Positions 13,571 through 37,825 of a DNA stretch of 64,000 nucleotides are shown here, one piece after another (the stretch's first letter is position 1; each line of letters opens with the position of its first letter). The DNA is taken from NCBI GenBank assembly GCA_947568835.1, contig OX387602.1:17845021-17909020 (forward strand). Reading direction: 5' to 3'. The notes under the pieces are model-generated. The model was not told the origin of the DNA. It ran no database searches and worked only from the letters and a program-made list of their open reading frames with translations. This DNA comes from Protonemura montana. Lineage: Eukaryota; Arthropoda; Insecta; Plecoptera; Nemouridae. The position numbers and the translations under genes were made by a program.

Positions 13571-16500
13571 CTATTTAACTGTGGCTGAGTCGTCGACAGT
13601 TTCAAGGTCTGATGCGCCAGTCTGTTGCAAGAGACTGGCCTCTACTTCGGCAATGTTGCACTGTACGCCGCGTTCCACACACTCTGCTTTCTTGGCAAGC
13701 TCTCGCTCAATCTGCAGAGACTTCTCAAGTGCCCTAAAATAATTGCACACTCAGGTATCTACTTCCAAATTCAAAATCAATTCCAGAAGTATCACTTCAG
13801 ATATTGATGCAAGTACTGGTAAATATTTAATATACCAATGGATATACCAATGGGAGAGCCATTTAAAACATAGTTGCCATATTTTACCCTCGAGTGTTAG
13901 CCATATTCCTGGTATGAAGCAAGCAAGGTTGAACAAAGTCATGCAGCTGGAAGCCACCAACTGAGGTTCAACTCTAAGAACTATCTTACATTTATTTATT
14001 TCCAAAAAGGTTTTCAGAACGGACCTTAGATTCTCCTTGAGCTGTAGGTTCTCGATAGCCAGTGTGCTGTTGCTCTCCTCTAATTGCAGCGCTCGTTTCT
14101 CCTCCACGACAAACTTCTCACTGGCTTCTTGCTCCATTTTCTTAAAAATTTCTTGTTGCTTGACGGCTACCTGTTGCTGAGCGCTAAGACTAGAGCTACA
14201 CTCTATCTCGTCAGCCAAGCGACCTTCGAGTTCCCGGATTTGCTGAAACATTGCAAAGCACGACATTCATCAATCCTGGTCTTCACTTTGTCCCTACAAT
14301 CCTTATGATTTTTGGCCTACCTCTTTTAGAGCAGCTACCTGTCCTTCATTTGCCGTGCTCGATATACCTGAAGATGCGCTGTTTGACATTTGCATAACTT
14401 CAATTTTGGCTGAAACCAACATGATTCTTAATTTACTCATTTTTAATTTACTTACTGACCATATTGCATATAAATAATTTCAAGTAGCAGTTTCACATGC
14501 CATGATTAAAATAATTGCAACTGATTCTCTTAAGCTAGTAAAAATTGAATGCCTCACCGCTAAGGTGCACCACTTTCTCCTCTAGTTCCGTGCGTTCCAT
14601 GTCAGCCTGGTTCCGTAGGCACGCATGGTGTTCTGCACACAGCAACGCATGGGACGCTCGTAACTTGGCAACTTCCATCGTCTGCTCCAGCCGCTTTTGG
14701 TCTTCTTCGAGGCGGTGCACCTCACTGAAATATTAGGTAGACCTTATTTCTACTTCCTGGTTTCTCATTTTACTAACTAGATAGATTAGAGATAGGAGGA
14801 AATTGAGAAAACATAAGAATAAGTCAAATGCTGAACCATGTTTTTTCTGGTGTTTGGCAAGCAACTTTTTAAAGTTTTACCATTACACTATTATGATATT
14901 ATTTGTATTGCTTCTAAACGCTTCTACTCGACATGAACAAGGCAACATAACCTAAACGTCATACCACGTCATTGCCACCAGCTCTTTCAACTTTGGTAAG
15001 TTGTGTTCCTTCTTTCCTTATTCTCGTTGTATACATCAGCATTTTGGTACTCTTACCTTAATTATTATTCAAATCATGTATGTCGGCTGTGAGCGACTGC
15101 GTTTACCTGACAATTTGCTCGTGAATGGAGCGTAACTTGTTCTGCCCGTTTGTATTGCTCTCTTGGTAAGTCACCTGGTAACGCAACTGTCCATCCACCT
15201 CCTCAGCCTTGCGTCGAAGCTTCATGTTTTCCATCTGACAAGAATCAGAATTACTATTTGGGTTCTAGAGATAAGTAGACCACAGACTGCACGAGCCCAC
15301 GTAAATACTACTCATCAACTAGGATTTCAACTCTTTCAAATGTAGAAAATTTGAACTTCTGCACACCAAAAAAAACATCAGACATCTTTCAACAACCATA
15401 CAGAAAAACTTATTGAACAGTTTGGAGTCGAGGTTGTCCGGTTGTGCTTTTTCGTGGAATGCAGTTTCCCACTTGTAAAATTACTCTTCAACGTTTTTTA
15501 TTATTATGAACATTATAACCGTCTCAAAAATTTGATGTCCAAACAAGGAATCGAACCCCGATCTCCAATTATCAAGGTGTTGCTCTAACCCATTGAGCTA
15601 CTTGGATACCTGCTTTTTGAGACGATTTAAGTGTATTTGGTTCTACTCCTGGAGATCTGTCATTCTCATCAAATACACTAAAATCGTCTCAAAAAACAAG
15701 CAAGAGTCCAAGTAGCTCAATGGTCTAGAGCAACACCCGCGATAGGTGGAGATCGGGGTTCGAGTCCCCGTTTGGGCATTAATTTATGAGACGGTTATAG
15801 TGTTCATAATAATAAAATACCCTGCGTATTTCGAGCGTTTGCAATTTAAATACGATTCCATCTAAACTGTTCAACATTATTGGGATATATATACTTTCTA
15901 CTACAGAGTATCAGTGGGAAGAATATAACCCATTGGTTTATTTAACAGCTCTGCTTAACACCAATAAAACATTTATAATTAACCATTTTTTTCATTAGAA
16001 ATAAAATAGTATCCGCAAAAAAATAAACAAAAATCTTAAAAAATATTTTAATTATGAAAGAGTCGAGTCAATCACAGTGATCGGAGTGAGCGTGACCTCG
16101 GATTTCAAAGAAACTGCAAACCTGTAAATCTCGTGCCTGATCCTTGAGCATGTCCCTCTCGGCCAACGCTGCATCCAGCTGCACACGTTGGCGAGATGCG
16201 GTCTCACGCACTCCACCCCGCTCCTCCTCCCAGCGGCGGAGCGCCCCGTTGGCCAGCTCCAGCTGCAGCTGCACTTCCTGGTTCTCTCGACGGGCGCGGT
16301 CCAAGGAACGTTCCAGCTCATGGCGTGCCAAGTACGCGGCGTTCAGCTCCTTACGGGACTCTTCCAGTGTGTTCTGTACACGAAAGCCGGGATTCACATA
16401 TTACCCTATCCGTGACATAAGCCGCAAATGAACAGGGGGGTGCAAATGCTTCCAAGAATATCGACAAAAGGGCTTCAACTGGTTGGGGGGGGGGGGGGGG

Positions 16501-19500
16501 GGAGAATCGCACGTATTAAATATTTAAATATGTTGAATGAAAACTAGTCTGGGCGAAACACTCGCCTACCGCCACTGTGCACGTCAGCTTTGTCAAAATT
16601 GCCTACACGTATTATAATGTTTGCCATTCAATAATCATTAAATCCATCCACTTTAGAAAGATAAAAATAAACAAGAGTTAAAAGTTTGTAAACGGTTTGT
16701 TTGTCAACCTTTGACAAAACTGTGAATCTAATTTCTTTCCTTTATGAAATTTACTTGGGAGTGCATATACAACTTTGGGCAACATTTCTTCCAACGGGCA
16801 GTTTTAATATGTCCAACTTAATTTATTGGATAAGTGCTAAGGATAAATCACGTAGACATGAGTCTAAAAACCATCATAATTTATTAGACTCATCCCCATG
16901 GTTACACCTAATCAGATACTTCTGTTTTCATCTTAACCTGCTTCTTGAACTGGCATTTAGCATTGTGAAAACGGTGAGAATAGAAATAGAAAAGTTCGGC
17001 TGAAATTTAAGTATTTTTCAGGAAGGCTTTCAGGAAGGTGCAACTCGAACAGCAGGATTCCTCCACAAATCCATGCAGTCGAGTGTTTGATAAGCATTAC
17101 TATGGGATTTGCAAGGCTAATGAAGTTGATGTAGTAATGAAGTTTCATTCCTCCAACCTCTCCCCCGAACATAACTGATTAGTGATCATGTGTATGATGG
17201 TCACCCATCCAATATCTGACCCAGCGCAGTGTTGCTTAACGTCGGTGATCTCACGAGAACCGGTGTTTCCAGCACGCCAAACCGTTCGGTGGGACGATTC
17301 GAGGAGGGCTCGTAAGCAATTGGACCACCCGCTGTGTGACTTGATTTGGTCAAGAACACTCACATCTAACAAATGCTAACATAGTTAAAATAAATCTAAT
17401 TAAACATCCGCAATTAAAGTACGAGAATTTGCAGTTGTTTAGCATCTGCATGCCTGGAAAACATTTGGTCTGTGATAGCAGCCGTGGACGCCATTGCTGT
17501 TATCACCTCGATCCACTTCGAAAACCGGTCAGTCAATAGGAACCGAGCTTCAGTCGATCGAAACTACGAGGCGGGGTCGATCGAGCACGTGTTGTGACGT
17601 CACTTGAACAGCGATGCTGTCGGTTTCAGGCGATACTCTTCTGTCGGCTACTCGCCTGGTACGAAGAGACAAATTTTCGCCTCGTTTTAGACGATTATTT
17701 CAGTTGAAACTTGTCATGGTTGGATTAACCGTACGTATAGGCAGTCCCGTGGCACTCCGCAATTGAACAATTGAACAATTGACAGCAATCGAAAAAATTG
17801 AAGGACGGTACAACTCGAACCACAGGATTTCTCCACAAATCCATGCTGTCGAGAGGTTGATAAGCAAGGCGAGTTAAGTTGCTGAACTAACTTTCAACCC
17901 TCTTACCTCTCTCCCGAACAGAACTGGTCATGTGTATGATGGTCACCCATGTTTCAGAAGTCAAATACAAAAGCTGACAACCATGTGAAAGTATTTAAAG
18001 CATAGATTTAAATTGCAAATGGGGTTGGATTGTTTCGCTCGCTACGCTCATCAAACACATACCATTTCAATTTTTGAATGTCGAAGTCGTTACGGGAAAA
18101 ATAACTTCAATAACCACAATTTAAAGGTCAAATTAAGTTGCAGGAGACATTTTGCATTACATGCATGCTCCCTTATGATATCACAGATCAGAGGCGCCGG
18201 AGCAGCGATCATATTTCAGAGATCAGCCAGATCAGTGAACTCCAGTCTGCTAGAGCCTCTCTTGCAGTCCTGGAACATCAAACACGGAGAGAAATTGTTC
18301 TGCTTTTTCGACTGCCGAGTTAAATTTTAACCAGTGGACTTGTTTCGCGGCGACCAGCACTACAGCGAAATGAGTAATTCGGCTCTGGATGGGCGCGGAG
18401 TTTCGTATCTGCAAGATAGCCGTCAAAAACAAGGTGTGAGCTTACAGATTCTTTTAAAATAAGGAACCTGGACCAATACTTTGTTCGCTGCCGGCAAAAA
18501 TTAAAAATTGATTTCGTTGCGTGGAGCGAAACAAGCACGCTGTTACGGAATGTCCTGCACAGAGGCGACGGCGAATGTTATTTCCAGGGGGGTGCAAGCG
18601 CACTCCCTTACGCCCCCCTCCGGGCGCCCATGCTTACAATAATGCGCCTGCGTGTGAGCTTACTTTCCGTAAGAACTCGAGTCTTTATGCGTTTCTAAAG
18701 TTTTTGAGATTTGCATTCGAAACTCTTTGGAACGTCTTGGAATCGACGATTTTCATTGCTAAGTCGAGGTCGCGACACCTTTGGGCAAATTTTGGGTAGT
18801 TCTGGGGGGTGCATTTTGTTCATTGTTTGTTTTTTTGGAAAACACACGTTGAAATTCGTTTGAAACGGTGCAACCTTCAAATAAAATTTAAGTTGCTGGA
18901 AAATGGGATTGATTCTGAGGACTTCCAGTCCTTGTCTAGTTTCAGGTCCGGGATTTTCCCCTGGTACCCAGAATTCGATTTAAATTGCCGATCCATGACT
19001 ATAATGATGACATGGATGACTATCCATGATTATGTATCATGACGTTCCTTATATAATCTATGTATTATCAACAGGAAATAAAGAGAAATTGAAAAAAAAA
19101 TTAAGGGTAGTTAAACGAGTAGCGAAACATCATGAGGCTGAGATCCTGTTCCATGCCAAGACGAATGAAAATGCCTCCGAACTATAAAAAAGAGTCCAAA
19201 AAATATCACGCATTGCATCAAATACATTTTCTCTCGTTTCATGACCTGTTGATTGTATCGCTCAAGGTACTTGAAATGAACTTTGAAGAGGTTGCTGACC
19301 AGCTATCGCGGAAACAATCAATGATTGGACGGCTTTTGAACACAAAATAATTCGACCCCCAAATGCGTTGTCCTTTTTTCTTCGTATATCTCCCGACAGT
19401 AGACGCTAATCACAAATTGTGAGTAAAATTACAAGATCTCCGATTGCAATCTATCAATAGTCTATTGTGTGAATTAATGAATGCACCACTCAATATTGAG

Positions 19501-33872: not shown

Positions 33873-34100
33873 GAAGGACGGTACAACACAAACTTCAGGA
33901 TTCCTCCTCAAATCCATGCTGAGAAGCACCGGATGATAAGCCGGTGCCAGTGAAGTTGTAATAACTTTCATCCCTCCAGCATCTCTCCCGAACAGAACCG
34001 GTCTCGCGTATGATGGTCACCCATCCAATACCTGACTCAGCGCAGTGGTGTTTAACTTCGGTGGTCTCATGAGAACCGGTGTTTCCAACACGCCAACTCT
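33873..34100 (-). mobile_element. 5S rRNA-derived SINE, copy 3
   Basis: On the minus strand: GTTGGAAACACCGGTTCTCA, then GACCACCGAAGTTAAACACC, GTCAGGTATTGGATGGGTGA and the shared tail ending GTTGTACCGTCCTTC. This is the best-preserved head, alignable to arthropod 5S rRNA including the box-A (GAAGTTAA) and box-C (GGATGGGTGACC) regions. The sequence beyond the tail (33786-33872) may be a LINE-type 3' end used for mobilisation. Confidence 0.82.
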
Positions 34101-34534
34101 TTCTCCAGAGACACAGCGCCCGGCGTGGAAGGTGTTGTCTGCTTTCTTGTTTCTTGCCTGCCATGTTTGCTCGAACAATGCGTGTCTTGCTTGTAGGGCT
34201 TGGCGAATGCCGACTGCCGACATCTGTTACGCCAAAATACAGACAGCTGGTGTTGCCCTGAGACGCGGATCCCGAGCGACGTAGTCTGGAAGGTGCCGAG
34301 GCCCACGAGATCGTCGAGGGGAGAACTTGATTTGTTACCTTAGATCACTGGGCCACAGGCTCTTGTAAAAATCGTGTTGAAAAAGGCGGTGCCTATCCTA
34401 ATTCCCACTGGCAATGGCCGTGCTGGTCAGGTGCGATGTGGAGGTGCCCAGATCCGATCTCGTGATCGATAATGTCGTAAAATCTGTGGTCGTACTTTAA
34501 AACTTTTTTTAATTTTTGAACAATGAAATATGTA

Positions 34535-34615
34535 CAGTGTCGGACTGGCCAGGGCAGCCAGGCGGAAAATGCCGCCGGGGCCTCCAGCCGGCCGGGGCCC
34601 CTGGGACCCCCATTT
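34535..34615 (+). repeat. hAT-terminus-like sequence
   Basis: CAGTGTCGGACTGGCCAGGG followed by GC-rich sequence resembles the 5' end of widespread hAT elements. No matching right terminus was found, so it is probably a fragment. Confidence 0.4.
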
Positions 34616-34859
34616 ACAATAAGGAAGTTTTTTAAAACATTTTTTAATTTATAGTCATTTGATTATGTTGTCTTAATGTTGCAAATAGCCAGTGCTTGTT
34701 ATCATTGAGCCACGCTGCCCTGATGGCAATAGGTTGGTGGAAGTCGTATATAAACACTTGATTTTAGACTTGGTAAAAAAAAATCACAAAAGTTATACTT
34801 CGGATTATCTCTCCCCATCCCTTCACTTGATCCATGTTCCAGGTGAAGGGCTTTGAAAG

Positions 34860-34935
34860 ACAAAAGCAGCAGGTGCCGGGAAGCGAACTGCGGACCCCAC
34901 GCAATGGAACTCACGACCATCCCACTGCGCTACGA
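34860..34935 (-). repeat. tRNA-like sequence 1 (SINE head or tRNA pseudogene)
   Basis: On the minus strand: TCCTCGTAGCGCAGTGGGAT (box-A-like) and GGGGTCCGCAGTTCGCTTCC (degenerate box B). Not a foldable intact tRNA. Confidence 0.55.
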
Positions 34936-35454
34936 GGACAGATATGCTATAACGGATTTGTTATCAACATGCAAGTCAATAAAACAAGATGTAAATAAAT
35001 CACTTCCAGCAGTAATATTTATGTGTGAATCCTGATGGGTAGGCCACTCATCGTACACGTGTGCACTGACGTCGTGTTTACAGTCCAGGCGTTGGGTGTG
35101 CAGTCACTTCAATTTCCACTCAAAAAATATTGAAAAATCAATTGACGTTTTTTACGTTTCTTACGTTTATTCTTGATTTTTGAAGATTCGCCCATACTGT
35201 GGTCTATGGTGTAGTTTGCACCCCCGAACACGATAGGCTATTATGGGCACGATTCCGTTATTTTATAGCTTCAAGGTTGGCAGCTCAGCAAGGTGGGTAC
35301 ACGGGTTACCGACCGATGGCCGTGATTTATCGACATTTTAATTGATCAAGTACATTTGATATCCCGCAGATTGCGTTTGCGATGACTTTGTGCTTTAACT
35401 CGACTGCTGGTTCGGTGATACTTGTTTGGTATGGTTGACCAGGGGACTTGACTG

Positions 35455-35605
35455 CGAGCAACGGGGTTCGACTGGCGTTCCTCCAGTCGGACTTCAAGGC
35501 TTGCATTTTCGCGTTAGATCGTGGCAACTGGTGAAAGCCCATTTTTTGGAGTGGCCGCGTGCCTCAGCACTGCTTGGTGTTGGGGTCCGGTCCGGCATTT
35601 ACACA
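35455..35605 (+). repeat. Dispersed repeat X, copy 1
   Basis: This segment contains GTTAGATCGTGGCAACTGGT, TTTGGAGTGG and GCTTGGTGTTGGGGTCCGGT. It aligns over ~140 bp with the reverse complement of 37505-37650. Confidence 0.7.
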
Positions 35606-35647
35606 TCGTGTAGAAGCGAAACCTTCTCTCTCTATTAGCGCATGGTT

Positions 35648-35720
35648 GATATGGTGGTGGTGGTGGTGGTGGTGTTGTTGATATTAATGTTGGTAGTTTT
35701 AGTGGTGTTGGTGGTATTAG
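35648..35720. repeat. GTG/GTT-type microsatellite
   Basis: A (GGT)n run decaying into interrupted GTT/GGT triplets. Confidence 0.85.
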
Positions 35721-36049
35721 TGAACGTTAGTTTGTTGCTTGTGATAATGTTTGTTAATTTCTGTATATATGTCGTATGATTTTATATTCTAATTCTAATT
35801 GCGAATAAATTATGTATATTTTCATTTTTCCCCCTTTTCCTACTTCTTCTTACAAATTTACTTTTTATAATTTTTCGTACTTAAGTTACATTTCAGTAAC
35901 AGTAGCCATCTTTTCCTTTAGCGTTTCCCACCATGGCCAATATTGTTTCGTCTATGTTATCACCCCCTGGTAGGCAGGCTAGAAACTAAAACATAATTTG
36001 AATTTTTTTTCTTGCCCTGGAGGATGATTGGTGTGATTAAAAAAAGATG

Positions 36050-36128
36050 TAGGCAACGAGGATCGAACGCAGGACGTTTGATACCTGATACACCCTCAGA
36101 AACCGCTCGACCACAAGACCCGCTCTCC
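36050..36128 (-). repeat. tRNA-like sequence 2
   Basis: On the minus strand: GGGTCTTGTGGTCGAGCGGT (Leu/Ser-type D-arm, box A) and CCTGCGTTCGATCC (box B). The acceptor ends do not pair convincingly, so a SINE or pseudogene is likelier than a working tRNA. Confidence 0.55.
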
Positions 36129-36414
36129 ACGATACGTTTTTTTGGGATACAAAAACTGTTCAACTGTGACAACTCCGTCAAAAAATCCGAAAAAATCTCA
36201 AACACTGCCTCCACGATTTTCATTAAAAGATATTTCGATGAAACATTATAAACATCAGCTTCAATATTGCCCAACATCATACAAAATAAAAATACGTTCG
36301 AAGTCTTGTACAGTTTACTCATCCTGGATCTTTCACTATGTATGAACAGACTATCGTATAACACCACTTGGACACCCAGGACGACGGTGCCATACTCTGG
36401 CGCTGGCCCTTAGG

Positions 36415-36695
36415 TCTAGCATCAAGCGTATAGGAACGATTATAATTAGTGTTACGCATCATCAGCGCCACCTGTTGACAGGATTTTGTACTACACTTTG
36501 GACAAATATGTTGATATTTTCCTGCTGTATTTTCATAGTTATTTTCCGATTAGTTAATGAATTAGATTAAAAATCAGACTTGGAAAATGTCTTCAATTAT
36601 TACAAGTCCAGAGTATAGTACAAAATCCTGCCAACAGGTGGCGCTGATGATGCTTAACACTAATTATAATCGTTCCTATACGCTTGATGCTAGAC
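36415..36695. repeat. Foldback with ~89-bp arms
   Basis: Arms 36415-36502 and 36606-36695 are reverse complements with only a few mismatches (for example GTCTAGCATCAAGCGTATAG versus CTATACGCTTGATGCTAGAC). They enclose a ~103-nt AT-rich loop. The right arm ends 12 nt before the hairpin array. Confidence 0.92.
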
Positions 36696-36707
36696 GTAGG
36701 AGCCCGG

Positions 36708-36976
36708 GTGCGTGAGCGACTGGCGCTCCGCGCCAGTCGCTCACGCACGCTGCTGGGCCCTGGCGCGGAGCGCCAGGGCCCAGCAGCGTGCCGGTGCGCC
36801 CGTGCACCTGAGCGCGCTTCGCGCGCTCAGGTGCACGGGCGCACCGGCGTGCGTCCAAGCGCGCTCCGCGCGCTTGGACGCACACCTTTGCGCGCTCACG
36901 CGCGCGAAGCGCGCGTGAGCGCTACAAAATTGCGGAGCGCGACTGGCGCGAAGCGCCAGTCGCGCTCCGCAATTTT
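36708..36976. repeat. Tandem array of six perfect GC-rich hairpins with 3-nt loops
   Basis: H1 36708-36748 (19-bp arms, loop TCC at 36727). H2 36745-36791 (22 bp, GGA at 36767). H3 36790-36848 (28 bp, TTC at 36818). H4 36849-36883 (16 bp, TCC at 36865). H5 36892-36922 (14 bp, GAA at 36906). H6 36926-36976 (24 bp, GAA at 36950). Every arm is mismatch-free and every stem tip is GCGC-loop-GCGC. H1/H2 and H2/H3 share a few arm bases; H3 and H4 abut. H1 and H6 share an identical 11-bp inner stem (GCGACTGGCGC). The 109-codon frame through it is an artefact. Confidence 0.97.
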
Positions 36977-37035
36977 CGTGGTATCTTTACTGTGCGATCA
37001 GAAAAAAAAATAAGATGTGTGCCACTGCAGTAGTT

Positions 37036-37121
37036 GTGCTGACGGGATTCGAACCCGGGACCCCGGCAAACTCATGATTATTCACAAGTGGTAGTGCCTC
37101 GTACCGCACGACCACGCGGAC
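37036..37121 (-). repeat. tRNA-like sequence 3
   Basis: On the minus strand: GTCCGCGTGGTCGTGCGGTA (box A) and CCCGGGTTCGAATCCCGTC (perfect T-arm/box B). The 5' and 3' ends do not form an acceptor stem. Confidence 0.6.
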
Positions 37122-37210
37122 ATATAGTTACTCTGGCATTTTTATGGTATATAATTTCTTCAGACTGCAGCTACCATATGTGAATACTTTAAATGTCGTA
37201 TTCCAATAAT

Positions 37211-37308
37211 AAAATATCCTGTCGGTGAGCGGGATCGAACCAGGTCACAATGTAGCTTGATGGTTCCGATGTAACGACATGTCCATTGTGCTACGCAGAC
37301 GGTCGCCC
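37211..37308 (-). repeat. tRNA-like sequence 4
   Basis: On the minus strand: GTCTGCGTAGCACAATGGAC (box A) and GACCTGGTTCGATCCCGCTC (box B). Confidence 0.6.
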
Positions 37309-37504
37309 CTGCTGTGGTAAACTGAATATATTTTAATTTCATATCTGATGTCCCTGTTTACCGGGTTGACTATAGGCACATGTCACTGACGGCACTCAAT
37401 GTATACTACGGTTGGGAGTCGCATTCTTCTTTGCGTTTCAGTGAACCATCAATTAAGAAATTGAAGATATTATGACCGACTATGACCGACTTACGCAGCG
37501 AGCA

Positions 37505-37650
37505 AGAACTGGACCTGACCCCCGCACCAAGTAATGCAGGGGCAATCGTCCACTCCAAAGATACGGGCTACCACCAGTTGCCGCGATCTAGCGTGAAAGT
37601 GTCAGCTGATAGCGCCCTCTGCAGGGACGCGAGCCACACCCAGTTGCTGG
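37505..37650 (-). repeat. Dispersed repeat X, copy 2 (inverted)
   Basis: The reverse complement carries GCTAGATCGCGGCAACTGGT, TTTGGAGTGG and ACTTGGTGCGGGGGTCAGGT. It aligns with 35455-35605. The two copies flank three of the tRNA-like sequences, the foldback and the hairpin array. Confidence 0.7.
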
Positions 37651-37769
37651 TTTGTCGTTTTTTTTTTTGGCCTTCTTATCCGACCTCGGCAGCATGGAGA
37701 TCGCTTCACACTACATCGCCTCTGCCATGCACTATCAAAGATTGTGCAAGCTATGTCGTGAAGAACAAA

Positions 37770-37825
37770 AAGCGGAGCGGACAGGACTCGAACGCCTCGA
37801 TAAGGACTCGATAACAAGACGTAAC
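37770..37825 (-). repeat. tRNA-like sequence 5 (partial)
   Basis: On the minus strand only the 3' half is clear: GAGGCGTTCGAGTCCTGTCC (box B/T-arm). Confidence 0.4.

Follow-up and report, generated by a model that had tools for sequence, protein, structure and literature searches.

One question raised by this locus is how a row of perfect DNA hairpins can keep its pairing while its sequence changes, and whether the responsible process acts on the DNA itself, on a transcribed RNA or through a bound protein. The window, that is, the whole stretch of 64,000 nucleotides analysed here, comes from Protonemura montana (contig OX387602.1, positions 17,845,021 to 17,909,020), and an earlier note on this DNA had placed six inverted repeats within its positions 36708..36976. 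All six were recovered, free of mismatches and with 3-nt loops (Table 1); likewise, the strands to which GNA loops had been assigned (plus for H2, H5 and H6, minus for H1, H3 and H4) and the 11-bp inner stem GCGACTGGCGC common to H1 and H6 were found as described. A GCGC-loop-GCGC core is common to all six hairpins. The back-to-back layout stands as far as the row of six is concerned, but H1 and H2 overlap by 4 bp and H2 and H3 by 2 bp, so that full simultaneous pairing of all six is impossible. Within the 64-kb window there is no other perfect hairpin with an arm of at least 12 and a loop of 3 or 4 nt, and the block, folded as single-stranded DNA, reaches -184.3 kcal/mol as against -88 ± 3.6 in 200 shuffles (z = -26.8). 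The right arm of the large palindrome lying directly upstream overlaps the conserved core (CCAACAGGTGGC, CTTGATGCTAGACGTAGGAGC) of a single-hairpin repeat family, to which H6 is also homologous. The word CCAACAGGTGGCGCT in this arm (36631-36645), which presumably resembles the CTCF core motif, is invariant across 37 array copies and has an inverted copy, matching at 14 of 15 positions, at 36464-36478 in the other arm.

Table 1. Features of the hairpin block and its surroundings, in window coordinates
Feature	Position	Strand	Description
hAT-type transposon copy	34535..37795	+	complete at the left end; lacks the right part after 37795
Left terminal inverted repeat CAGTGTCGGACTGGCC	34535..34550	+	188 exact copies in the genome
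Inner ~75% inverted repeat, left arm	35457..35593	+	homologous to ends of a single-hairpin family member
Palindrome left arm	36405..36503	-	99 nt, 93% complementary; directly upstream of block
Palindrome right arm	36606..36704	+	99 nt, 93% complementary to left arm
H1	36708..36748	-	arms 19 bp, loop TCC (GGA on minus); single orientation, 36/36 scored copies
H2	36745..36791	.	arms 22 bp, loop GGA; orientation 23 plus, 14 minus
H3	36790..36848	.	arms 28 bp, loop TTC; orientation 27 minus, 10 plus
H4	36849..36883	.	arms 16 bp, loop TCC; orientation 16 minus, 20 plus
H5	36892..36922	+	arms 14 bp, loop GAA; single orientation, 26/26 scored copies
H6	36926..36976	+	arms 24 bp, loop GAA; single orientation, 37/37 copies
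Inner ~75% inverted repeat, right arm	37511..37648	-	partner of 35457..35593

To judge from the sequences of its boundaries, the block is the internal cargo of a non-autonomous DNA transposon of hAT type. In 22 of the 30 compared loci homology to the window copy sets in no more than a few bases from 34535, and in 25 it extends to 37792-37795, beyond which the other copies continue with sequence absent from the window. Both ends of the element were found in two of 30 scanned loci, L026 (4652 bp) and L034 (4733 bp); in the others no right end occurs within the fetched flank, which may stop short of it. The termini of these two elements, CAGTGTCGGACTGGC...GCCAGTCCGACACTG, are CAGTG-type terminal inverted repeats (TIRs) with 15 identical terminal bases, and both insertions are bordered by 8-bp target site duplications (TSDs), TTGGCAAC in L026 and CTTATGTC in L034. 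Short CAGTG...CACTG TIRs combined with an 8-bp TSD are the signature of the hAT superfamily. The 16-mer end CAGTGTCGGACTGGCC has 188 exact copies in the genome, with none for the reversed control; at G000:C5:921508-921659 it is repeated five times with a spacing of 34 bp. Since the longest stop-to-stop open reading frame inside L026 is of 153 aa, the element looks non-autonomous, and at least 77 matches to the hAT dimerisation domain PF05699 (among the best 150 of 177 candidates scored) occur elsewhere in the genome. The element thus resembles non-autonomous hAT transposons in its ends, its TSDs and the lack of a long reading frame in L026, and differs from the usual ones in its hairpin array, its large palindrome, its Pol III-box-like words and its size of 4.65-4.73 kb.

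Other assignments were considered and rejected. Miniature inverted-repeat elements (MITEs) measure about 600 bp or less, and both complete copies exceed this size. Helitrons carry a hairpin near the 3' end and have neither TIRs nor TSDs, so that the internal hairpins, the TIRs and the 8-bp TSDs rule them out; Foldback elements are defined by long terminal inverted repeats, whereas the termini of L026 and L034 share just 15 bases and the larger inverted repeats are internal. Similarly, the suggestion of an element mobilised by its hairpins finds no support here, since the array lies within an element whose ends are of hAT type and are bordered by 8-bp TSDs.

Words resembling Pol III B boxes occur on the minus strand at 36060-36068, 37046-37054, 37232-37240 and 37785-37793, with A-box-like words upstream of them (a loose pattern). 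The window element holds five such A/B-box matches, one of them on the plus strand, as against 0.7 in shuffles (maximum 4 in 200), and L026 holds seven as against 1.0. Intact tRNA genes can be discounted in the elements scanned: ARAGORN found none in L026, L034, L009, L012 or L017, and the Rfam tRNA model gave no match at E <= 1 in L026, L034 or L009. Outside the element, 5S rRNA-like sequences lie on the minus strand at 33990-34103, just left of the transposon, and at 17174-17289 (46-47 bits), and a divergent pair of tRNA-model matches occupies 15536-15607 (minus) and 15706-15778 (plus).

Other such arrays, for which the earlier note had proposed a search, do occur. The 258-Mb, 34-contig genome holds at least 37 copies, the one in the window included, with near-full cover of the 481-base query, a count that is a lower bound because the best candidates were scored. 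For the loop, orientation and stem counts 37 of 42 blocks were kept, the incomplete arrays L046-L050 being removed; the H5 loop is missing in 10 of these 37. The most divergent copy (L045, 70%) still has five perfect hairpins, whose stems differ in part. Measured over 21 copies, divergence from the majority is 3.8-8.6% in the three 100-bp bins of the array, and among the other 30 bins it is 0.9-5.3% in 26 and 6.4-12.9% in four, the latter being those of 35635-35835, a GT-rich repeat stretch, and of 37035. The array is thus not conserved in sequence, yet its divergence is not unique among the bins of the element. In one copy (L018:2761-3282) H5 has expanded to a series of GCGCGCTC units that is asymmetric and contains two GAA centres, possibly a product of hairpin slippage.

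What is conserved in the array is the pairing. Across the 37 aligned copies standard pairs occupy 98.5% of 4165 cells. The stem counts rest on 118 pairs; they omit the four outer pairs of H2 that are incompatible with H1, and also pair 28 of H3, which is G·T in 29 copies and which another count over the same 37 blocks retains. Both sides have changed at 36 of these 118 pairs, as against a shuffle mean of 10.4, and the cells changed on both sides number 101 as against 14.9; none of 500 shuffles reaches either value, a fraction that is not to be read as a probability because the shuffles ignore the relatedness of the copies. When the partner is slid by one to three columns, just two to five two-sided pairs remain. 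The proposal that pairing is kept while sequence changes is in this respect borne out. Counted as pair-by-type events, the residual mismatches are evenly divided, with 14 of the kinds G·T and T·G against 16 of A·C and C·A, and 16 purine-purine against 14 pyrimidine-pyrimidine. The equality of G·T and A·C argues for a process at the level of DNA, since selection at the level of RNA would be expected to leave an excess of G·U on one of the strands. H6 alone departs from this symmetry, all five of its mismatch events being of the plus-favoured kind. Among mirrored clusters picked out by eye, adjacent bases of H4 have changed together from CCA to TTT in L026 and L034, and the arms of H1 are longer in L019 and L027 (23 rather than 19 bp) and in L032, where H2 contains a mismatch; the mirrored H4 changes and the longer H1 arms look like template-switch events.

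The loops are more constant than the stems would lead us to expect. The sequence is GRA (GAA or GGA) or its complement in 209 of the 212 scored array loops, so that of the GNA loop initially proposed the C-closed G..A frame stands and the free central base does not, there being no GCA or GTA among the 212. Loss of the outer G or A would be expected about 8 times at 2% per site and about 15 times at the 3.7% of the arms; the observed departures number three. The orientation of the loop is a different matter, for H2, H3 and H4 occur both ways round and H1, H5 and H6 in one. On a tree of the flanks the minimum number of flips is 10 for H2, 8 for H3 and 5 for H4, and the means with shuffled labels are 11.4, 9.1 and 11.9 respectively; the value for H4 lies below all 200 shuffles (minimum 8). 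The orientation of H4 follows the flank tree, and that of H2 and H3 hardly does so, which means that exchange from copy to copy may add to the true flips. Gene conversion between copies could in this way spread a few old flips, and the number of independent flips is to that extent uncertain. Nevertheless close relatives do differ: L040 and L043, 1.6% apart, by a flip of H3, and L029 and L031, 2.3% apart, by a flip of H2, and a single H2 arm haplotype present in eight copies carries TTC in four and GAA in four.

The single-hairpin family to which H6 belongs is far larger than the array family. The motif GCGCGRAGCGC has 905 sites in the genome, compared with 183 for the reversed control; of 20 stretches around these sites, all on contig 1 and among the matches listed, 17 match the core region of the element, most of them with a hairpin homologous to H6. 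The common form is GCAAAATTG-GCGGGCGC-GA-CTGGCGC[GRA]GCGCCAG-GA-GCGCCCGG-CAATTTTGC, which on the GRA strand gives a tandem G·A pair and one G·G; H6 retains this G·A form in L031, L036, L037 and L038. With DNA parameters the hairpin is more stable on the plus strand (-31.3 kcal/mol) than on the minus (-27.0 kcal/mol). The exact core GACTGGCGC-NNN-GCGCCAGGAG occurs 563 times, with GRA in 532, GYA in 16, TNC in none and other loops in 15, so that 548 are GNA. Orientation can be read against the G-rich tract upstream in 456 matches; of these, 455 have GNA and one has TNC, this sole flipped hairpin, with a TTC loop, lying at G000:C1:22623574-22623638. Many copies belong to tandem arrays that repeat about every 1.7-1.8 kb, and the family counts are therefore inflated and not independent. 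Such arrays are seen at G000:C1 28.8-31.2 Mb and C3 22.73-22.74 Mb, with one GNA hairpin per unit at the places listed; all five units listed at C1:30.578-30.585 Mb have GTA loops.

When distinct modules are considered, the loop core is present in 43 of 44, and GRA lies on the plus strand of the module in all 43. In 20-column bins over 40 modules, four of the 44 being left out, the stretch that begins at CTTGATGCTAGACGTAGGAGC, takes in the GGGG-rich tract and closes with the hairpin is 94-99% conserved, forming a core of about 140 bp; the flanks are conserved at 62-79% on the 3' side and 69-92% on the 5' side, the edges of the alignment possibly depressing the first bins of the latter. The tract GGGGTATAGGTGGGGTTTGGGGTCGTGGG, which presumably could form a G-quadruplex, ends about 8 bases before the hairpin in L071 and its relatives, in bins that are 96-99% conserved. 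Searches for the family in viruses and prokaryotes gave no match for two parent-core words in viral_contigs and none for one of them in genome_contigs. We infer that the array descends from the single hairpin. Both H6 and the parent hairpin seem to be locked to one strand, and may be functional.

The reading that we favour, at a probability of roughly 0.6, is that the C(GRA)G hairpins extrude, correct themselves and invert within a hAT-type transposon, with the H6 side locked by selection. The arms that change together and the loops that are turned suggest that the hairpins form in living cells and there rewrite themselves. The C(GRA)G loop would ease the extrusion of short palindromes from supercoiled or replicating DNA; template switching on the extruded hairpin, or cruciform or hairpin repair, would then copy one arm onto the other, giving mirrored mutations, and occasionally the hairpin would be turned round, so that the loop is flipped and the arms remain as they were. 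As long as the GRA loop is kept, extrusion and correction could continue, and once it is lost the palindrome would decay, such that perfect arrays would be self-maintaining. Growth of the array may have proceeded from an H6-type hairpin through duplication in inverted orientation and the formation of new palindromes. In H6, and within the array also in H1 and H5, orientation would be fixed by selection, the hairpin of one strand being recognised by some reader, and H2-H4 would be free to flip. That H6 and its relatives keep one orientation despite the 24-bp, mostly perfect stem of H6 suggests selection on the element; were a long perfect stem sufficient for flipping, H6 (24 bp) and H1 (19 bp) should flip as well, which would point to selection at both. 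The earlier suggestion of single-stranded hairpins with a template-switching type of replication is thus one that the pattern of the array fits.

The nearest alternative retains the DNA-level process and dispenses with template switching; cruciform cleavage with mismatch repair, or else gene conversion between copies, would keep the arms alike. Symmetric mismatches and mirrored changes fit this account and template switching alike, and the mixing of sequence among copies would also explain why the orientations of H2 and H3 hardly follow the flank tree. The longer H1 arms of L019, L027 and L032, however, look like copying from the opposite arm, and the presence of both orientations within a single arm haplotype also speaks against it, so that we consider it somewhat improbable.

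Another possibility is that the hairpins are selected sites for a protein that recognises dyads or binds cruciforms, such as a transposase or a chromatin or origin factor. The core shared by the six hairpins, the conserved words flanking the hairpin at the parent core and the single orientation of H1, H5 and H6 would agree with such a site, but the outer stems vary among hairpins while staying mostly perfect within each copy, other parts of the transposon are more conserved than the array, and the orientation of H2-H4 is free; on balance this is unlikely.

Selection on a transcribed structured RNA or on small-RNA precursors would equally produce compensatory changes. It could draw on the conservation and strand-locking of the parent hairpin with its core of about 140 bp, on the parent-hairpin mismatches (G·T at seven pairs and A·C at three by hand count), on the plus-favoured mismatches of H6 and on the Pol III-like boxes nearby. 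Against it, the array as a whole shows no excess of G·T over A·C mismatches, the loop flips of H2-H4 would turn GAA into UUC in the RNA, and neither inside the element, where there are sub-threshold matches only, nor in the scanned loci (11 of the 14 loci L071-L084) does any Rfam family attain its gathering score. The RNA of stacked hairpins that had been proposed is for these reasons disfavoured for the array, and RNA-level selection in general is, in our estimate, distinctly unlikely. A structured RNA comprising the whole parent core was also rejected: the outer stem of the plus-strand minimum-energy fold is absent from the RNAalifold consensus (39 distinct rows), and its 3' half, CTACTGTCTA, is missing from the array alignment. 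Finally, palindromes are hard to sequence, but an artefact of assembly or amplification is very improbable given 37 copies at separate loci with different yet mostly perfect stems and outer flanks that differ in most of 30 loci.

Several known systems resemble the array in part. In the small inversions of chloroplast DNA the loop is inverted between palindromic arms, and the array resembles these in having small inversions at hairpins; they are organellar, whereas the hairpins described here are nuclear and arrayed and their loop is conserved. The REP palindromes of bacteria, with their TnpA-REP enzymes, are likewise high-copy palindromic repeats possibly moved by a dedicated enzyme, but they are prokaryotic and the array eukaryotic.

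The arm-correction mechanism itself is already published. According to Monttinen and Loytynoja (2022; PMC8794818), both the correction of stems and the inversion of loops can result from template switching in rRNA and miRNA genes, and GNRA and CUUG loops, both of which are stable in DNA, show an enrichment of instantaneous corrections. The same study reports that full loop inversions are very rare in the rRNA data and that 3-nt loops are depleted among corrected hairpins (3.5% versus 6.1%), 4-nt loops being enriched (PMC8794818). Compensatory changes and loop inversion, the marks of hairpins maintained by template switching, are both found in the array, which shares with those hairpins the mirrored multi-base changes, the loop inversions, the copying of the opposite half and the DNA-stable loops; it differs from the rRNA and miRNA cases in being a transposon-borne array of six hairpins with 3-nt GRA loops, three of them in mixed orientation. 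In the early promoters of phage N4 extrusion requires the closing C-G pair together with the 5' G and 3' A of a 3-nt loop, and the A or G at the loop centre is recognised by the polymerase (PMC4496689). Nearly all of the array loops and parent cores counted above have this composition; the C(GRA)G loop is the same as in N4, and in both cases the hairpins of the two strands differ (PMC4496689). The N4 hairpins serve as promoters in a bacteriophage, have a short stem and are used by a dedicated RNA polymerase, whereas those described here are eukaryotic repeats with stems of 14-28 bp. By analogy with N4, we would put forward, tentatively and at less than even odds, that the parent hairpin may be a strand-specific signal, C(GRA)G with the tandem G·A pair beside the conserved G-rich tract, extruded in vivo and read in single-stranded form, which the transposon would have multiplied into a self-correcting, inverting array.

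The open-licence literature yielded no description of such a hairpin array or of a strand-locked parent hairpin. Extrusion of short palindromes in normal eukaryotic chromosomes is hard to demonstrate, and the 37 natural copies of the array may have recorded it; if the N4-like reading is true, the genome would constitute a natural record of hairpin extrusion in vivo. Arm correction and loop inversion can be counted in these copies site by site, with the neighbouring one-orientation hairpins as internal controls. Ultimately, an orientation ratio of 455 to 1 in the parent hairpin suggests that it matters which strand bears the loop, and this would make a reader of single-stranded DNA in a eukaryotic mobile element a testable proposition.
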